From the NCBI GenBank assembly GCA_014377665.1, contig JACMPF010000010.1:1-41488 (forward strand): 41,488 bases of DNA, read 5' to 3'. This document shows positions 1,842-10,166 of the stretch, in pieces. The stretch comes from Pedobacter sp. (lineage in GTDB: Bacteria > Bacteroidota > Bacteroidia > Sphingobacteriales > Sphingobacteriaceae). A model generated the notes under the pieces. The model did no database searches, was not told the origin of the DNA, and saw nothing but the letters and a program-made list of their open reading frames with translations. The translations under genes were made by a program, and so were the position numbers. Numbering within the stretch: the first letter of the stretch is position 1; every line of letters begins with the position of its first letter.

Positions 1842-3137
1842 ATGGAATCTAAAATAAACGAACAACGAATTTTTAATGCCATTTGCCTTGCATTAGTTGT
1901 GGCTGCATTTACTTTTGCTATAAGAGCTAATCTTTTAGGAACTTTGGGGAAGGAGTTTGGATTAACACCCATTGAATTGGGAAGAGTAGCCTCGGCTGCT
2001 TTTTGGGGATTTACGATTGCAATGTTTGCCGGTGGATCGTTATGTGATTTGATAGGTTTAAAAAAAATGTACATACTGGCCTTTTTGGGTCATGCATCAG
2101 GAATTCTACTTACTATATATTCTCAAGGTTACATTTCTCTATTTATATCAACATTATTAATTGGGTTAGGAAATGGATTTATAGAATCTGCTAGTTACAC
2201 ACTTATTAGTAGCCTATACTCTGATGATAAAACAAGGAAGCTTAGCAGTTGGCATATTTGGTTTCCGGCAGGTATCATGATCGGCGGTCTGTTAGCCTTT
2301 TTCTTGACTTGGATGAATTTAAATTGGAAGTTCCATATGGCTATTATGCTACCTCCTACTTTAATCTATGGTGTGATGCTCTATAACCAAAAGTTACCTA
2401 AATCAGAGCGAATAATATTAGGGGTATCTAATAAAGAGATGATAAAAGCGTGCTTTAAACCACTCTTCATTTTTATGATTTTTTGTATGTTTCTGACTTC
2501 TGCAACGGAATTGGGAACTAATCAATGGATTGCCGAATTACTATCGACAGTAGGTGTACCTTCTATATTGTTATTGGTTTTTATCAATGGCATAATGACA
2601 ATTGGGAGAGCTAATACAAGATTTATGTTAAAAAAGTTTTCAATTACTAATTTACTACTTTTCTCAGCCGTGTTTTCATTTATTGGATTGGTTTGGTTGG
2701 GTAATACCCAGGGTTATATGACATTTGCGGCAGCAGGAATTTTTGCTATCGGTATTTGTTATTTCTGGCCAACAATGATTGGATTTGTATCAGAAACGAT
2801 GCCCAAAACCGGACCATTGGGCTTGTCTTTAATGGGGGGAGTTGGACTGCTTTCTACCGCCTTAATTCAGCCTTATTTTAGTGAAATATATTACAGCCAA
2901 TTGTCATCAAATATTCCAGTTGGAGTTAATCCTGAACTGTTAAAAAATGCTATTGCTGGCACAGAGGCTGCTGGTTTATGGGAACAGGTAAAACTTATAG
3001 CGGGCGCTAATACTTTGCTATATGTTTCTATACTTCCTGCCATTCTAATTGTGGCTTTTTCCATACTTCACTTCTTTAAGAATGTAGAAAAGCCTGGTTT
3101 TAGCCAAACAATGGATAAGACACTCCAAAATTCTTAG
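1842..3137 (+). CDS. MFS transporter, probably for a sugar or glycoside
   Basis: This is a 431-residue polytopic membrane protein with about 12 hydrophobic segments and a short cytosolic N-terminus (MESKINEQRIFNAICLALVV). The first-loop signature GGSLCDLIGLKKMYILAF corresponds to the MFS G-x-L-a-D-r-x-G-r-k motif. FAIRANLLGTLGKEFGLTP resembles the FucP/sugar-permease branch found in Bacteroidota sugar clusters. It should act in the inner membrane as a proton- or gradient-driven importer. The AraC-type regulator follows 34 bases downstream on the same strand, and the catabolic operon converges on both. The neighbours suggest the substrate is the sugar or glycoside processed by that operon. The specificity cannot be read from the sequence. 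Confidence 0.87.
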   Translation: MESKINEQRIFNAICLALVVAAFTFAIRANLLGTLGKEFGLTPIELGRVASAAFWGFTIAMFAGGSLCDLIGLKKMYILAFLGHASGILLTIYSQGYISLFISTLLIGLGNGFIESASYTLISSLYSDDKTRKLSSWHIWFPAGIMIGGLLAFFLTWMNLNWKFHMAIMLPPTLIYGVMLYNQKLPKSERIILGVSNKEMIKACFKPLFIFMIFCMFLTSATELGTNQWIAELLSTVGVPSILLLVFINGIMTIGRANTRFMLKKFSITNLLLFSAVFSFIGLVWLGNTQGYMTFAAAGIFAIGICYFWPTMIGFVSETMPKTGPLGLSLMGGVGLLSTALIQPYFSEIYYSQLSSNIPVGVNPELLKNAIAGTEAAGLWEQVKLIAGANTLLYVSILPAILIVAFSILHFFKNVEKPGFSQTMDKTLQNS

Positions 3138-3171
3138 ATTTGCAGATAGAAAATTATTGATTGTTGATACT

Positions 3172-4152
3172 GTGAAAAAAACTTACGAAGAAGACGGTAA
3201 AATTTATCATGCCGACAGCTGTAAAACATTAACAAATGCATGGAAGGAGGGCAGGATCCAGTTAGATGCATTGGCTAGGAATAACTATCCTGGTTATCGG
3301 CTAGAATCTAATATGATTCCTGGTATTAATACTATCGGTTATTGGAATGCGCAAACTGAGCAGGAATGGGGCTTAGACTGGCATCGCAATGAAGGAATTG
3401 AAATAACTTTCCTTGAAACAGGTACAATGCCTTTTTTATTAGAAGATGGAACTTATATTATGTTGCCAGAAGACCTTACCGTAACACGTCCCTGGCAAAT
3501 TCATAAAGTTGGAAACCCAATGATTGGAGTAGGTAAATTACATTGGTTGATTTTGGATGTAAAAGTTAGACAGCCGCATCAGGATTGGAAATGGCCTTCA
3601 TGGATTGTTTTGGCTGAGAACGATTTAAGGGAACTTACCAAGTTCTTAAGACAAAATGAACAGCCAATACTTAAAGCAAATTCTGATATTAAGAGATGTT
3701 TTCAGAAAATAGGGAATCTTATACATGACTCTTCAAGTCTTTGTGAATCCTGGATTATAATTTATGTTAATGAATTACTAATGTTGCTGTTAGAGTTATT
3801 TAAAACAGGAAAGTATGTGTTAAACGATACATTAACCAATAGTGTGCGTACAGTAGACCTTTTTCTTAAAGAATTAAATGAGAATTTTTCAGAACCATGG
3901 ACATTAGAATCAATGTCTTCTCATGTTGGTCTGGGTATTACCAGGTTTACGCATTACTTTAAACAGTTAACAAATAGGACACCCATGCAATATCTTAATT
4001 CAATTAGGTTAGAAGCGGCTCAAAAACGGTTGATTGAATATCCTAAAATAGGTATCAATACTATTTGTTACGATTGTGGCTTTGCCAGTACGCAATATTT
4101 TTCTACAGTTTTTGCCAAAAAATTTGGATGTCCACCATCTGCATATAGATAG
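3172..4152 (+). CDS. AraC-family transcriptional regulator
   Basis: The protein has about 326 residues. The N-terminal half is beta-rich and cupin-like (GIEITFLETGTMPFLLEDG around residues 75-95, then HKVGNP), typical of an AraC sugar-sensing domain. The C-terminal roughly 100 residues carry the two helix-turn-helix motifs: WTLESMSSHVGLGITRFTHYF, then the signature ICYDCGFASTQYFSTVFAKKFGCPPSAYR, which ends the protein as usual. No in-frame ATG is present. GTG at 3172 is chosen because homologous proteins tend to begin just before a DGKIYHAD-type segment; TTG at 3157 is the alternative. It is probably co-transcribed with the MFS gene and is the likely regulator of both that unit and the opposing operon. 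Its stop lies 5 bases from the stop of the PmoA-like gene. Confidence 0.88.
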   Translation: MKKTYEEDGKIYHADSCKTLTNAWKEGRIQLDALARNNYPGYRLESNMIPGINTIGYWNAQTEQEWGLDWHRNEGIEITFLETGTMPFLLEDGTYIMLPEDLTVTRPWQIHKVGNPMIGVGKLHWLILDVKVRQPHQDWKWPSWIVLAENDLRELTKFLRQNEQPILKANSDIKRCFQKIGNLIHDSSSLCESWIIIYVNELLMLLLELFKTGKYVLNDTLTNSVRTVDLFLKELNENFSEPWTLESMSSHVGLGITRFTHYFKQLTNRTPMQYLNSIRLEAAQKRLIEYPKIGINTICYDCGFASTQYFSTVFAKKFGCPPSAYR

Positions 4153-4157
4153 AAGTT

Positions 4158-5129
4158 TTAATTTTTAAACTTTTCAAAAATTTTGTTTAGTGACTTATCT
4201 TCTACGTCTCCACTATGGATATAAGTCCTATATTTCAACACCAACCGCTTATGGGCTTCAAGGTTCAAAGGTTGGTTATACAAGATAGCAGGCATGAAAA
4301 AAACATGCTGACCTGCTGCATACCAGATATACCAAGGTGATGGATGATGCGGGTTTTTAGGATGATCAAAAATTGTTATTCCTCCTTTTGAACTTTTCTG
4401 TGCTCCAAAGTACGCTGTCATGTCCATCCAATTTGCATTTTCGCCGTATCCTGTTAAGTCTTTTTTATTGGCCCAGCCATTTGAATCTCTAAAAACAGGA
4501 TCATTTAACGAATTAGCCCCCCTATAACCTAAACCCGCGTATCCTCCGTAAGCAAATCCACCCCTTTTAAGAGTAGGTACACAATCGAATACAAGTAATG
4601 AATCTTGTGCTGTAAAGTTTAAGGACCAGTCAATTGTATAATTGCCCTGTTGATCTGGTGCGGATATTAACAATACCCTGTTTTCTTTTAGAATTGTCTT
4701 CTTTCCTTCAGGCGCATATTCCATTCGAATATTAACTTTGACAGAAAAGTTTTTTTCAGGTTTAATGTCAACCTTTATAATTTTGCTTCTTCCTTCAGAA
4801 ACACCCCGCCCATGTATTTCTTCCCAATAATTAATTTTATTTATGTCGCGCCATGCAAACCACAGACCACGGTGATGCCCGTGGTCTGCAGGTCGTTCCA
4901 TTGTTAGGTCCTTGCCATTTACTCTTAGTGGATGAAAGTAGGGTTTATCCTGATCTTTATTGAAATTTAGTTGCCATACTATTTCTCCATTTTTGATTAG
5001 TGCAAAGGTAGAATCAGACCTACGCCAGTTATATTCATTTTTTATAGAGGTATCTAAAATTCCAGCTCTAGTATCCCAAATACATAAACTCAACAAACTT
5101 AACAGGCATAGTATTGGTCTGATTTTCAT
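4158..5129 (-). CDS. PmoA-family (DUF6807) secreted protein
   Basis: This 323-residue protein has a signal peptide (MKIRPILCLLSLLSLCIW, cleavage near TRAG). The body matches the family annotated as PmoA or DUF6807: HPLRVNGKDLTMERPADHGHHRGLWFAW around residues 85-115, YGGYAGLGYRG near 195, and IFDHPKNPHHPSPWYIWY near 255. The name comes from an old methane-oxygenase annotation; nothing here indicates methane oxidation. In Bacteroidota and Planctomycetota, members occur beside DUF1080, ThuA and sugar oxidoreductase genes, and the histidine-rich blocks suggest a metal or carbohydrate site. It is the last gene of the four-gene operon, 32 bases after the cupredoxin-fusion gene. The family call is good and the biochemical function is not established. 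Confidence 0.8.
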   Translation of the reverse strand: MKIRPILCLLSLLSLCIWDTRAGILDTSIKNEYNWRRSDSTFALIKNGEIVWQLNFNKDQDKPYFHPLRVNGKDLTMERPADHGHHRGLWFAWRDINKINYWEEIHGRGVSEGRSKIIKVDIKPEKNFSVKVNIRMEYAPEGKKTILKENRVLLISAPDQQGNYTIDWSLNFTAQDSLLVFDCVPTLKRGGFAYGGYAGLGYRGANSLNDPVFRDSNGWANKKDLTGYGENANWMDMTAYFGAQKSSKGGITIFDHPKNPHHPSPWYIWYAAGQHVFFMPAILYNQPLNLEAHKRLVLKYRTYIHSGDVEDKSLNKIFEKFKN

Positions 5130-5161
5130 AATAGTATTTTAATAATTTAAGCTATAATATT

Positions 5162-7267
5162 TTATTGTACTACAGCCATTTCGCCCCTCATTATGGTGTA
5201 GTGACCAGGGTAGGTACATAAGAACGGATATAATCCCTTCTTTAAAGGTGCAGTAAAGTATATAGTTTCAGAAGTTCTGGGCTGTAATAATTTGGTATGT
5301 TGTAGAATGGACTTCGAAATGGGTACATATTGCATGGAGGGGCCTTCTAGACCCAGCTTCATTGCTAGCTTACCTACCTCATCTGCAGAACTTGGTTGAA
5401 CCAGCACGAAATTGTGCTGCATATCGTCGTTATTATTAAAAACCAATTTGATTTTTGCTCCTGGCTTCACACTAAATTTATCAATGTCAAATTTTAATCC
5501 AGGTTGGGTTCCAATAATAATGGTTAAATCTGGACCATTTACCCATGAAGATGGTAATGTATTTACTATTTCCTTACTATTCGGAGCAATTGAATTTGTT
5601 TTATTGTCTTCTTTAAGTTGATTTTTAGCGGCATTTTCTTGCGCTGGATCTGATATTTTTAGGAGATCCTTATCCTGAAAAGATAGTTTTTCTCCAGCTG
5701 GAATTGCGTTTAAAGAATAGTAACCAAAGTCATGCAAAAGTGGTGTTTGATTAGCAGACCTTAAACCTGCACATTTTACCTCATGAATATACCCTTCCCT
5801 TAAGTTGCTGAGTACCAATCGAACGGTTAAACCATCATCAGATATCTTTATAGCTAGGATTTTGCATTCTTTTTTATCAAAAACCTCACTACCATACGTT
5901 TGATGATATTTATAATCAAAACCCGAAATATTATAACTTGCAGGATCAAGTGCTGTTTCCTTATTTAAAGGGGAAGTGAATTCAAGTTCAAATCCATCTG
6001 GCTTAGCTTTTATTGCTTTAATCTCAAAAGGAGTGTTGCCTGTCCATACCAAACGTTGTAATCCATGTCTAAAAGCAGCTGTTGAATTCCATCCTCGGTC
6101 TGACATACCTACAAAAATAGATTGATCGTTTCCCCATTCCAGACGAAGTATTCCAGACATAAAACCTTGTCTAAAGGGGAAAGCAGCTCCCTGATATTCT
6201 CCATTTACTTTTTCCATAAATACCCGCATTATACTTGCATGACCCTCATCTCCAACAAAATATTGACCAGCGAATGGTCCAAATCCTCCATTTGTATGGT
6301 CTTCAACAAGACCCGAAAGAGATATGCCTAAAATTCCATGGGGAAGTCGTACAGAAGGTAGCTTCATCCCCGGTATTCGTTTAACTGCATCATGAAATAA
6401 TGGGTTGTCAGTTGGAATATCACTGATTCTTGTTTTTAAAGTTGAGCCCGGTTTGTCCGCAGATTTTAATCCAGAGGGGTGACCAAAAAAATTGTCTTTT
6501 TGCACCTGAGTAATATAGCCAGTGCCTACCCATCCTCCCTGATTTTCAGTATAAAAGAGCTCACCTTTACTATTTGTCCCGATTCCGGCTGGAGATCGGT
6601 AGCCTGAAGCGAAAGGTGTAAGAACTCCTTCCGGAGTAACCTGGACCATCCATCCACGCCACAATGCATGGCTTCCCATTTCTCCGAAAAACGGCTCCGT
6701 ACTGCTGCCCATGCCGTTGTCGCCTAAATTGAAATTAATATAAAAATTACCATCTGCTCCAACTACGGGGCCATGGTTATACTCACAATAATTTCCAGAC
6801 AGTTCCCAGGTCGTAACTGTTTCAAACAGGTCTGCAATATCATCACCATTGGTATCTGATATTTTCGTCAATTCAGCTCTTTGTGCTACATATAGGGCAC
6901 CATTCTTATAGGCAAGACCAAGTGGCTCATGAAGACCTGATGCAAACAATTTAAAATAAGGTTTTGAATTGTTCAACATCCCTGGGTTCTCTATTATCCA
7001 TATGTCACCTAGTCTCGTGCATACAGCCAGTCTACCATCTGGTAGTTTTGCCAGACCCCCAACTTCTAATTCAACACCAACAGGAGCCTGAACATTAATA
7101 ATTTTATAAAAATCGTCCTCGGTTAAGGCTTTTGCAACTTCTGTTCCATGACCGGCATGCTGTGCAAAAGCACTATTCAGGCAGTATAGTATTTGTAAAG
7201 TAACAAGCAGAACGAATCTTACTTTGTATTTTAAGCTAAAAAATATAGTACAATAGTTTTTAAACAT
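5162..7267 (-). CDS. Secreted beta-propeller dehydrogenase-like protein fused to an azurin-like cupredoxin
   Basis: This is a 701-residue exported protein; a hydrophobic stretch (VRFVLLVTLQILYCLNSAFA) ends near residue 35. Residues about 50-430 form a beta-propeller of the sorbosone/glucose-dehydrogenase-like type, with GGLAKLPDGRLAVCTRLGDIW, GLHEPLGLAYKNGALYVAQR, SGYRSPAGIGTNSKGELFYTENQG and an SVRLPHGILG strand. Residues about 430-545 look like an Ig-type or similar beta domain. Residues about 590-701 are a cupredoxin with a complete type-1 copper set by azurin spacing: H618 in MQHNF, then C684, H689 and M693 in CTYPGHYTIM. The fusion suggests the propeller oxidises a sugar substrate in the periplasm and passes electrons to its own copper domain; that role is inferred. 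It is the third gene of the operon, 41 bases after the DUF1080 gene. Confidence 0.83.
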   Translation of the reverse strand: MFKNYCTIFFSLKYKVRFVLLVTLQILYCLNSAFAQHAGHGTEVAKALTEDDFYKIINVQAPVGVELEVGGLAKLPDGRLAVCTRLGDIWIIENPGMLNNSKPYFKLFASGLHEPLGLAYKNGALYVAQRAELTKISDTNGDDIADLFETVTTWELSGNYCEYNHGPVVGADGNFYINFNLGDNGMGSSTEPFFGEMGSHALWRGWMVQVTPEGVLTPFASGYRSPAGIGTNSKGELFYTENQGGWVGTGYITQVQKDNFFGHPSGLKSADKPGSTLKTRISDIPTDNPLFHDAVKRIPGMKLPSVRLPHGILGISLSGLVEDHTNGGFGPFAGQYFVGDEGHASIMRVFMEKVNGEYQGAAFPFRQGFMSGILRLEWGNDQSIFVGMSDRGWNSTAAFRHGLQRLVWTGNTPFEIKAIKAKPDGFELEFTSPLNKETALDPASYNISGFDYKYHQTYGSEVFDKKECKILAIKISDDGLTVRLVLSNLREGYIHEVKCAGLRSANQTPLLHDFGYYSLNAIPAGEKLSFQDKDLLKISDPAQENAAKNQLKEDNKTNSIAPNSKEIVNTLPSSWVNGPDLTIIIGTQPGLKFDIDKFSVKPGAKIKLVFNNNDDMQHNFVLVQPSSADEVGKLAMKLGLEGPSMQYVPISKSILQHTKLLQPRTSETIYFTAPLKKGLYPFLCTYPGHYTIMRGEMAVVQ

Positions 7268-7308
7268 GTCTTAATAATTTTTATTTAACACAAATAATTT
7301 TTTCAGAA

Positions 7309-8724
7309 TTACCAGATAATAGAATACTTGATCTCCGTTTGATTTTTCAATCCGGATATTGGCACAATCAACTCCTGGCCTAACCCTGCTTCTCTAAGAA
7401 TCGCCTTCGAGCTTTGATCATTTGTATATTTTATATAATAACTACTGTTATTTATACTATAAAGATCCTTCCCAACCTGTTTAATGTTAACTCCTTCTGC
7501 CAACTTAAACCATAGTATATTTGCGTCTTTTCCAGACGATACCTTATACTTTCTAGTTAGCAGACTGCCATTTTCCTGAGGTTCAATTTTATCTTCAATA
7601 CTAAAATTACTTACCGTATAAAGGAAGGTTGGTTTGCCATCTACATCGATTTTATATCCTTTAAATTTGAATTTATCAGACTGTTTTTCAGGCCATTTAT
7701 CTTTACTGTTTGATAATATTGCGAAGGCTGGCGATGGAGAAATCTCAAATTTGCTCCCAAGCGGTACAGCTATTTGAGTTTCCCCGCGCTGTGTCCACAT
7801 AGATGTTGCATCAATAAATCCGCCTTTCCAAAAATTAATTAGGGCGCCTTGCGAAAGGTCAATTGCATAATTGATTTTATCTGGATGACCAACAGCTGCA
7901 CAAAAAGTTCTTTTTTTGTGGTCATATTCGATAAAACATCTCTGAACAATTGTTTTAAGTTGTGGAGTGACTATGATTTGTCTATCCTGGATATTTTCAT
8001 TGGGAACTGTACCCATAAAATCTTTGACATTAGCTAGATTTTCGAATTGAAAATAACGAATATTTTTCAAAGCAATTGCTCCCCCGGCTGCTACCATCCA
8101 AGGGCCATTAATTACTTCTCCTTTTAGTGGACTATTGGTTGATGGCTCCTTAATCTCAATGTTTTCCTGGATCGTCACGCCATTATACTCAACTTTTAAG
8201 AACTTCGCATTATCAGTTTTGGTGCCAGAATTATTAAATTTTGGAGCCTGAAAAAAGACTGTCATTTTTTGCCATAAACCGGGAGCCCGACAAACATTTA
8301 TTCTGGCATCTGGAAGCAGCTCTTGATTGCTCCAGCTATCATTAAGTTTTATTGCATATCTGCCTTGCAAATACATGGTAGTCTGGGATCCTTTAGCAAG
8401 CATAAACTCAAATTCAATTGCAAGGTTATTGTGTTCCAGGTTTGAAACAAGAATGCTTTCACTTTTCCCTTTAGGGATGTTTACAAGAATTCCTGTTCCA
8501 TTCTTTATTTCACTTTTCTCCGGTTTGCTAAAATCATAAGAAACATCCTCAACAAGTTTCCATTTTTGTGGTACTGTTTTAAATCCTGAAAGATCATTTA
8601 ATGACAGATTTTTAAAGATTGTTTTAGTATCAGTTTGTGCCTGTAGCTGGGTTAAAGAAGTAAAATAATTACAGCAAACCAAAAGAAAGACAATTGATCC
8701 TCTAATAAAAGTTCTCATTAGCAT
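7309..8724 (-). CDS. Secreted DUF1080 (3-keto-glycoside-active) protein with an unassigned C-terminal region
   Basis: The protein has 471 residues and a signal peptide (MLMRTFIRGSIVFLLVCCNYF). Residues about 40-230 have the concanavalin-like DUF1080 fold: LVNIPKGKSESILVSNLEHNN, then the core strand LAIEFEFMLAKGSQTTMYLQGRYAI, GLWQKMTVFFQAP and the closing AGGAIALKNIRYFQFEN. DUF1080 proteins act on 3-keto sugars in known Bacteroidota pathways. Most are single-domain, about 200-280 residues, but this one has a further roughly 240-residue, strand-rich region that I do not recognise (landmarks FKFKGYKIDVDGKPTFLYTV and LLTRKYKVSSGKDANILWFKL). It lies between the TIM-barrel gene (41 bases upstream) and the cupredoxin fusion (41 bases downstream). 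A second in-frame ATG at 8718 is equally possible as the start. Confidence 0.78.
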   Translation of the reverse strand: MLMRTFIRGSIVFLLVCCNYFTSLTQLQAQTDTKTIFKNLSLNDLSGFKTVPQKWKLVEDVSYDFSKPEKSEIKNGTGILVNIPKGKSESILVSNLEHNNLAIEFEFMLAKGSQTTMYLQGRYAIKLNDSWSNQELLPDARINVCRAPGLWQKMTVFFQAPKFNNSGTKTDNAKFLKVEYNGVTIQENIEIKEPSTNSPLKGEVINGPWMVAAGGAIALKNIRYFQFENLANVKDFMGTVPNENIQDRQIIVTPQLKTIVQRCFIEYDHKKRTFCAAVGHPDKINYAIDLSQGALINFWKGGFIDATSMWTQRGETQIAVPLGSKFEISPSPAFAILSNSKDKWPEKQSDKFKFKGYKIDVDGKPTFLYTVSNFSIEDKIEPQENGSLLTRKYKVSSGKDANILWFKLAEGVNIKQVGKDLYSINNSSYYIKYTNDQSSKAILREAGLGQELIVPISGLKNQTEIKYSIIW

Positions 8725-8765
8725 TAAGTTAAGGGTTCAATATTAGCATATATTTAAACTATATT

Positions 8766-9614
8766 TTAATCATTAATTAGTAAAGGACCCAAGGCTTTCT
8801 TTAAAAATGCGATGCTTCTTTCTGCCTCGTCAAGTTTACCGCATTCTACACTCAAAAATATTTCTTTGTTTACAGGTTCCAATATTTCAAATACCTTATC
8901 CCAGTTTACCACACCTTCGCCGCATGCGCACCCTACTGGGGTACCAGTTATAGAACCACGTTGCTCAAGGCTTTGCTCCATACTTATATCCTTGGCATGG
9001 ATATGCAAAACTTTATCTTTTACAGCATTCAGTCCATCGTATGGATCTTCAACACCCGCTAAATAGGAGTTTCCGGTATCCCAATTTACACCGATCCATG
9101 GCGAATCTACAAGATTTACTATGCGCATAAGTCCCTCAGCTGTCTTGGTAAACACTCCATGCGGCTCAATACATACATTGATTTGATGACGATTTGCCAC
9201 TAAAGCTGCTTTTGTTAATGTGTATTTCATAACCTGATGTGCAAAATCATCATCCATCCAATCTGGTTTTACCATCTCGTCGGTGTTAACAAACTTTGCG
9301 TTAACAGCGTCTGCAAAAATGATAGCTCTTGTAAGGCGGGTAACTGCTGCTTCGGGCTTCATTAAAGGACTATGACCACTGATACTGCTAACCTTCATTC
9401 CATACTTATCACAAATCTCTTTCATTAAAAGCGTATCTTCTTCCATAGAAAATGAATGAAAATATTCAACCTCACTAAGTAATTCCCAACCGGTATGTAC
9501 CATTGGTTCTACATATTTATACCCTAGTTCCGATGCTAATTTTACACCAGCTTCAAAGCTCATGTCAGAACTTCTGCAGTATTCCATGTTGAGACTAATT
9601 CTAAATTTCGCCAT
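8766..9614 (-). CDS. Sugar phosphate isomerase/epimerase-like TIM-barrel enzyme
   Basis: This 282-residue cytosolic protein belongs to the xylose-isomerase-like TIM-barrel superfamily (AP endonuclease family 2 fold). The expected divalent-metal ligands are all present: E150 in CIEPHG, D179 in NWDTGN, H206 in HIHAKD and E257 in SVECGK. Length and ligand spacing match the epimerase/isomerase group. It is the first gene of the leftward operon. Homologues in 3-keto-glycoside loci of Bacteroidota, such as the B. thetaiotaomicron BT2156-BT2160 region, accompany DUF1080 proteins and oxidoreductases. It lacks a signal peptide while the next three gene products have one, so it should act on an imported product, perhaps delivered by the MFS protein at 1842-3137. 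The exact reaction is not deducible. Confidence 0.87.
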   Translation of the reverse strand: MAKFRISLNMEYCRSSDMSFEAGVKLASELGYKYVEPMVHTGWELLSEVEYFHSFSMEEDTLLMKEICDKYGMKVSSISGHSPLMKPEAAVTRLTRAIIFADAVNAKFVNTDEMVKPDWMDDDFAHQVMKYTLTKAALVANRHQINVCIEPHGVFTKTAEGLMRIVNLVDSPWIGVNWDTGNSYLAGVEDPYDGLNAVKDKVLHIHAKDISMEQSLEQRGSITGTPVGCACGEGVVNWDKVFEILEPVNKEIFLSVECGKLDEAERSIAFLKKALGPLLIND

Positions 9615-9810: not shown

Positions 9811-10061
9811 TATTAAAGATCTATTGTTATGTCCGTTCTATCCGAATGTAACTTGGAGCCTGGATTTCAAGACTAAATAGGACAAAACGGAAAACAGAAG
9901 ATCCTGTACAAAATATTACAAACAATACCTTTAAACATAGGTTATTGAGGTAATCGAAATTCTTCCTGATGGGTTCTGCCTGCGATGAACAAACCTTTGA
10001 CTAGGGTACTACTGTGTATAAAAGCAGGCAGGAATCACTTAAACTACATATGAAAAACATA

Positions 10062-10166
10062 GTTGCCGTATCCTTGCCCTATCTTTGAGTTATCATTGCT
10101 GTATCCATGGAGATATAGCAATGATACGGCAACTATATAGTAAGGATATAGCAAGGATACGGCAAC
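10062..10166. repeat. Cluster of short inverted and direct repeats around GATACGGCAAC
   Basis: Two direct copies of a 22-base unit, GATATAGCAA-(T/G)-GATACGGCAAC, lie at 10112-10133 and 10145-10166 and differ at one base. An inverted copy starts the cluster at 10062-10083, with its first 16 bases an exact reverse complement of the last copy. Inside, 10091-10106 and 10111-10126 form a 14-of-16 hairpin with a 4-base loop. The whole region can fold as nested hairpins. Its composition differs from the flanking AT-rich spacer. It may be a REP- or MITE-like element; no transposase gene is nearby. Confidence 0.6.

Follow-up and report, generated by a model that had tools for sequence, protein, structure and literature searches.

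The lactose 3-dehydrogenase LacABC is a periplasmic enzyme that, in the accessible part of its description (PMC9007349), acts together with DUF1080 proteins in Caulobacter and, probably, in Pedobacter; because it does so, the GFO/IDH/MocA oxidoreductases are not the sole known route of oxidation in such pathways. A second point of comparison is Lac161_ORF7, a TIGR02604-HEAT-cytochrome c protein from a verrucomicrobial clone, for which the available portion of the report (PMC5342196) gives release of glucose from lactose, production in BL21(DE3)pLysS with isopropyl thiogalactoside (IPTG), and a possible shared operon with a PF14100 (= DUF6807) gene. In Thaumarchaeota, sugar dehydrogenases dependent on pyrroloquinoline quinone (PQQ) have been called donors to cupredoxins (PMC6657660, partial text), and in Roseiflexus the alternative complex III hands electrons to auracyanin (PMC8552683, partial text), which we take only as a hint that copper proteins of this type may belong to electron-transport chains. 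Here we describe an operon on a 41,488-nucleotide stretch of a Pedobacter sp. genome (the window, which is contig C201 of a 3.0 Mb, 81% complete genome), in which a 701-residue fusion of a propeller to a cupredoxin and a 471-residue partner protein form, on balance probably, a periplasmic oxidoreductase of two proteins that has a copper or heme outlet, the two being interchangeable, and that is set here in a sugar operon.

The operon consists of four intact minus-strand genes at 4158-9614, found as open reading frames where the preliminary description had placed them. In window coordinates its parts are as follows.

4158..5129, minus strand: DUF6807 (PF14100) protein of 323 residues with a signal-like N-terminus (Pfam, 172.9 bits)
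5162..7267, minus strand: propeller-cupredoxin fusion of 701 residues with a signal-like N-terminus (Pfam Copper-bind and DUF7133; AlphaFold2 model)
5168..5536, minus strand: azurin/auracyanin-like cupredoxin, residues 578-700 of the fusion, with ligands H618, C684, H689 and M693 (Pfam, structure match, alignments)
5693..7120, minus strand: propeller region and C-terminal extension, residues 50-525 of the fusion (own profile; model residues 49-411 adopt the fold of a PQQ aldose sugar dehydrogenase)
7309..8724, minus strand: partner protein of 471 residues, its N-terminus signal-like, encoded immediately upstream of the propeller gene (Pfam, AlphaFold2 model, gene pairing)
7312..7986, minus strand: conserved partner domain X (DUF6797-like), residues 247-471 of the partner (alignments, own profile, structure match, pairing)
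8059..8595, minus strand: degenerate DUF1080-like sandwich, residues 44-222 of the partner (Pfam, structure matches, motif loss)
8766..9614, minus strand: TIM-barrel isomerase/epimerase-like protein (AP_endonuc_2) of 282 residues without an evident signal peptide (Pfam, 105.2 bits)

Export of the 701-residue, 471-residue and DUF6807 proteins is predicted from their hydrophobic, signal-like N-termini.

The finding of widest reach is that the propeller and the DUF6797-like domain X of its partner form a near-obligate pair whose redox outlet, copper or heme, is exchangeable. Across 24 genomes, a propeller gene lies directly downstream of 41 out of 41 domain-X genes, and 41 of 44 propellers have domain X, the rest being two propellers at contig starts and one 989-residue frame; with this search as positive control, domain X gave no match in 20 of 20 genus-mates that lack the propeller. 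The partner family stands in the same gene run at 75 of 80 loci, which are the best 80 of 579 confirmed and hence, as best-scoring matches only, biased to close kin; the next commonest family in these runs, SusC-like, reaches 8. At L099 the partner follows after a 356-base gap, and partners are present at L081, L136 and L143. Among ten single-chain relatives from more distant genomes examined with Pfam, six (912-1070 residues) join cytochrome c, DUF6797 (62-114 bits) and the propeller; two others (L201 and L202; 1223 and 1226 residues) contain cytochrome c, PA14, the propeller and a strong DUF1080 domain, and the remaining two matched neither DUF6797 nor DUF1080. As a side observation, the Spirosoma-Larkinella kin carry a gene of 111-114 residues between partner and propeller (L082, where it reads MTTDYLTWTDFEKVEIRTA, and L088, L090, L094, L095, L097, L113 and L123).

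Within the partner, the invariant residues of 21 aligned sequences fall in domain X. The DUF6797 model (PF20601) gives the window partner no match at E 0.001 and scores 22.3 bits, against a cut-off of 24.9, on the relative at L062. In the AlphaFold2 model of the partner (predicted local distance difference test, pLDDT, 87.5), the C-terminal domain comes closest to the sandwiches of polysaccharide lyases and mannosidases (HepC, Z 11.7), a common arrangement that points to no function. By sequence, no solved relative was found for domain X or DUF6807; our literature search brought up no paper on DUF6797 and, in the partial texts it returned, no function for DUF6807.

The second line of evidence is the exchange of the redox module. 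The same genome encodes two propeller paralogues (contigs C262 and C257), and both terminate in a cytochrome c domain with the heme motif CxxCH, which does not occur in the 701-residue protein; a third class has a propeller without any redox domain of its own, the cupredoxin being fused to the neighbouring partner. Own profiles sorted 165 propellers into 139 propeller-partner pairs, 8 copper propellers without a partner found by script, 16 single chains, one other, and L084, a copper-class propeller with an out-of-frame extension that lies outside the tree described below. The pairs comprise 99 with the cupredoxin on the propeller, 24 with cytochrome c on the propeller, 15 with the cupredoxin on the partner and a single one with neither (L160, whose partner sits at a contig end); two redox domains in one pair were seen in 0 of 139. 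These locus counts are not fully independent, as L061 repeats L129 and L050 repeats L079.

In a tree of 94 dereplicated propellers, heme rows arise at two places inside the copper class. A 47-row subset of our own choosing united them in 0% of 200 bootstrap trees, and a single heme origin was rejected (approximately unbiased test, p-AU 2.9e-43; log-likelihood 114 lower); the tree needs at least two copper/heme exchanges. The lone second case, L233, has a propeller 63% identical to the copper class and 50% to the other heme-class proteins, together with a cytochrome domain that resembles the others by eye, by own profile and by its CxxCH motif, so that the event may have been a recombination of the module. 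Electron transfer is the one function that azurins have in common with small c-type cytochromes. The main argument is that, since a cytochrome c with this function takes the place of the cupredoxin in relatives, the copper domain would transfer electrons as well; the role proposed for it in the preliminary description is in this way well supported, and likely, on comparative grounds, by the two or more exchanges and by the third class with the cupredoxin on the neighbour. A repeated copper-for-heme exchange is strong comparative evidence for electron-transferring enzymes.

Further redox fusions were seen near such pairs or single chains. At L199, L200 and L208, a DUF7133 protein (966, 892 and 916 residues) has HEAT-like repeats, which pass the cut-off only in L199, and ends in a Copper-bind domain; it adjoins a single-chain cytochrome c-DUF6797-propeller protein and constitutes another copper-for-heme exchange, in the family of Lac161_ORF7. 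A GSDH-cytochrome c protein lies beside a heme-class pair (L040, 8303-10195), and at L063 (3369-6755) a copper-class pair has a ThuA-GSDH-PKD-cytochrome c protein as its neighbour.

All four type-1 copper ligands named in the preliminary description were recovered. They are invariant in an 18-row alignment, and every cupredoxin fused to a propeller (109 of 109) or to a partner (15 of 15) keeps them; other cupredoxins in the same loci have the complete set in at most 8 of 9. Copper binding is predicted from this conservation. Copper-bind (PF00127) scores 35.3 bits over residues 589-699 (cut-off 21.2), and the azurin equivalog TIGR02695 scores 35.5, below its cut-off of 105.1. The closest solved relatives by sequence are auracyanin A and 6kol (E about 2e-14), the latter with 38% identity in the structural match. 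Auracyanin (6kol, 2aan) and azurin share the type-1 ligand set and are free carriers, whereas the cupredoxin of the window is fused to an enzyme-like propeller. Nitrous oxide reductase, a protein with CuA and CuZ centres and seven blades, likewise combines a propeller and, after it, a cupredoxin in a single chain (from Foldseek rank 9 downwards), but at a TM-score of about 0.2-0.25 the likeness is one of domain order only.

The dehydrogenase-like character of the propeller, claimed from sequence in the preliminary description, agrees with its predicted structure (mean pLDDT 83.6). The top match is 2ism (VIA-align Z 29.1 over 285 residues, root-mean-square deviation 2.7), followed by other PQQ aldose sugar dehydrogenases (3a9g, Z 28.5; 7cgz, 27.9; 3das, 27.5); SMP30/lactonase and NHL propellers score lower, at Z about 24 and below. 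The likeness in propeller fold extends over the soluble PQQ aldose dehydrogenases as a group (2ism, 3das, 3a9g and 1cq1, with the AA12 pyranose dehydrogenase 6jt5; Z 22-29), and by itself it would favour a conventional aldose dehydrogenase that relies on scavenged PQQ and carries its own blue copper acceptor. In profile alignments with GSDH proteins, R224 pairs with the Arg of an Arg-Asn pair, which, with a catalytic His, we take to form the PQQ site of soluble glucose dehydrogenase. The Asn of that pair is replaced by S225, and no conserved His stands at the catalytic place; these alignments are weak (probability 48-54), too weak for mapping the PQQ site, which was set aside. The propeller also has no match to GSDH (PF07995) at E 0.001, and it differs from the PQQ enzymes in its partner gene and its copper domain; we know of no soluble glucose dehydrogenase with an obligate partner. 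PqqC found no match in the 81% complete genome, though its control search was also silent. We therefore regard a plain PQQ enzyme as improbable. Conservation of R224, Q359, R375 and W393 reaches at least 97% in each of the three paired classes and 92-100% in single chains.

Family models also connect the propeller with proteins such as Lac161_ORF7: DUF7133 reaches 30.9 bits on the 701-residue protein (cut-off 27), and TIGR02604 (PVC-type heme-binding) 34.6, far below its cut-off of 122.2. The likenesses to the TIGR02604/DUF7133 proteins are these two matches, the redox domain in cis and, in the part of PMC5342196 that is available, a PF14100 gene in the putative operon as in the window; the differences are the score below the TIGR02604 cut-off, the lack of a HEAT match, copper in place of heme, and the separate DUF6797-like partner. 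Beyond PMC5342196, literature searches on TIGR02604, DUF7133, PVC-type heme-binding and Piru_Ver_Nterm returned nothing, and a search by title on cupredoxin-dehydrogenase fusions returned nothing on this propeller family. A chance fusion or assembly error was rejected because the propeller-cupredoxin fusion recurs in many genomes; matches to the propeller as such occur in 117 of the 301 genomes searched in the window's family and in 47 of the 395 from its phylum.

From the distant relative comes another explanation, that the propeller is a glycoside-cleaving or sugar-binding scaffold whose copper or heme domain serves an outside enzyme or senses the redox state. It has in its favour the cleavage of lactose reported, in the available text, for a TIGR02604-HEAT-cytochrome c protein (PMC5342196). 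The residues of the PQQ site, moreover, are not clearly conserved in the propeller. The redox domain, however, has stayed in the propeller chain or on the partner despite at least two exchanges and one relocation, which suggests tight coupling. We also take the lacZ genotype of BL21(DE3)pLysS to be one that would allow host enzyme to be formed: since Lac161_ORF7 was made in this strain with IPTG, at least as far as the partial text goes, LacZ is a possible contaminant of the glucose-release assay and the lactose activity may come from it. A scaffold thus seems a shade less credible even than the PQQ enzyme.

The 471-residue protein had been called a DUF1080 protein, a name that suits its N-terminal half and leaves out residues 247-471, which are a separate conserved domain. 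PF06439 (DUF1080) gives a modest 31.2 bits (cut-off 26.8). The modelled N-domain has the fold of 3-keto-glycoside eliminases (Z 18.5 to 4qhz, 16.4 to 9fbe and 15.0 to BT2157, 3osd), and differs from BT2157-type enzymes in its lost motifs and in the extra domain X. The motifs in question, NSG and E-x-Q, are those common to the genome's other DUF1080 domains, their role not being drawn from a paper: eight of the 16 PF06439 domains of the genome were read, and seven have NSG and six E-x-Q. The window domain has QTT and A-I-K in their place. Partner N-domains keep NSG in 15 of 24 cases and E-x-Q in 14, and neither is kept in any of the four members of the window subgroup (window, L049, L069, L070). 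Given these losses a working lyase is doubtful here, and the domain is more likely a binding or vestigial one. Nine of the 90 copper-class partner rows, from 8 genomes, all Pedobacter or same-genus, have domain X without the DUF1080-like domain (11 rows with X at the start, minus the split frames L095 and L134). A plain DUF1080 lyase was rejected for the 471-residue protein, since what is conserved in it is domain X, and the DUF1080-like part has degenerated in the window and is missing from some relatives.

The same domain enters into the explanation closest to the preliminary one, in which, within a 3-keto-glycoside pathway, oxidation at C3 falls to the fusion instead of GFO/IDH/MocA, and the product is cleaved by a DUF1080 protein, either the operon's own or one encoded elsewhere. 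The cluster indeed has DUF1080-like and TIM-barrel genes and, as first described, no GFO/IDH/MocA gene, none being matched on the contig (PF01408 over the whole genome, and an own-genome profile); the eliminase-like fold of the N-domain and the union of cytochrome c, propeller and strong DUF1080 domain in L201 and L202 are in keeping with it. By own profiles, only 6 of 119 pairs have a GFO/IDH/MocA gene on their strand at a distance of 6 kb or less. Pfam on 118 neighbours of 250-345 residues, drawn from 249 same-strand neighbours of 230-480 residues, found separate DUF1080 proteins commonest (11), followed by ThuA (6), DUF6807 (3), TIM (2) and GFO (2); with separate DUF1080 enzymes at the head of this count, a general link of the pair to keto-sugar breakdown through them is possible. 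Against this stand the motif loss in the window subgroup, the X-only partners, and the scarcity of TIM-barrel genes, near 3 of 119 pairs (Pfam agreeing for two full-length ones). DUF6807 is likewise near 3, and a general link of the pair to TIM/DUF6807 was rejected, the two being near 4 of 119 pairs only (the window, its close kin L049 and L070, and L060).

Elsewhere in the genome there are 15 GFO/IDH/MocA matches (PF01408), some within about 1.1 kb of a DUF1080 domain (contigs C122, C228, C254 and C257), and therefore the usual keto-sugar pathway seems present apart from the operon. These ordinary neighbours, and a GFO gene downstream in L069, run counter to the claim that the fusion replaces GFO/IDH/MocA, and we hold the C3-oxidase explanation to be unlikely, if less so than the two others. 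A described parallel is LacABC, which also has periplasmic oxidation tied to DUF1080 proteins (PMC9007349, partial text). PF13618 gave no match in this 81% complete genome, its control matching in 2 of 14. We assume that family to be that of the small subunit (LacC-type), and presumably the LacABC components are unrelated to the window proteins.

The closest operons, L049 and L069 of Dyadobacter, run TIM, SusC, SusD, partner, propeller, DUF6807 (the TIM gene of L049 lying only partly inside the stretch examined); the window has no SusCD genes at the corresponding place. In L069 the GFO gene lies 2.8 kb downstream of DUF6807, beyond two opposite-strand genes. Elsewhere the pair is often alone, or accompanied by SusCD, sulfatases or other genes. 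The sugar context of the pair is indicated by SusCD with DUF6807 in these two operons and by the DUF1080 and ThuA proteins among the scanned neighbours. Two further genes of the window converge on the operon.

1842..3137, plus strand: transporter of the major facilitator superfamily (MFS), upstream of the AraC gene and convergent with the operon (Pfam)
3157..4152, plus strand: AraC-type regulator, convergent with the operon; a related gene is convergent in Dyadobacter L069 (Pfam)

In the two-protein oxidoreductase that we favour, the propeller and domain X would form a complex that binds and oxidises a carbohydrate-type substrate, with the propeller as the catalytic part. The fused azurin-like domain would accept single electrons and hand them on to the respiratory chain, the part that cytochrome c would play in the relatives; among terminal oxidases, COX1 has four matches in the genome, one of them a fragment. 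In the periplasm DUF6807 would act on the product, which the MFS carrier would then import for rearrangement by the cytoplasmic TIM-barrel protein, the order of these steps being putative.

Several points weigh against this proposal. No partner gene was seen at 4 of the 80 loci (L084, L098, L100 and L114), and the 24 genomes in which the pairing was counted had been picked for holding the propeller. Pfam lists no cytochrome for L233 at E 0.001. Many propellers with this fold are lactonases or scaffolds (Z 22-24), and the missing GSDH match and, in the weak alignments described above, the unconserved Asn and His count here too. The sole activity reported for a distant relative is glucose release, not oxidation (PMC5342196, partial text), and no experiment on any close member was found in the literature.

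More tentatively, and with less confidence than we place in the two-protein enzyme, the DUF6797-like domain and the DUF7133-related propeller may be the halves of a widespread, unrecognised class of periplasmic carbohydrate oxidoreductases, with a catalytic site that is neither of the known PQQ kind nor NAD-based and a one-electron outlet that plugs in as heme c or blue copper, whether on one of the two proteins or with everything in a single chain; the 'beta-galactosidase' activity of the relative would then be an oxidation-assisted glycoside cleavage. The near-obligate partner indicates what to co-express with the propeller, and the three pairs of this one genome, one copper and two heme, allow a direct test.

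A few observations concern single loci. In L069 (Dyadobacter sp. LHD-138), an in-frame stop at 9000-9180 splits the propeller gene into 370 and 307 residues, the other operon genes being intact. In the marine Flavobacteriaceae L137 and L145, sulfatases surround the pair, with an alpha-L-fucosidase as well in L137; these neighbours, of which four proteins were checked by Pfam and the others by sequence start, hint at sulfated fucose-rich glycans. In the window itself, imperfect 22-nucleotide direct repeats and inverted repeats occur at 10059-10166, between the TIM-barrel gene and creD.

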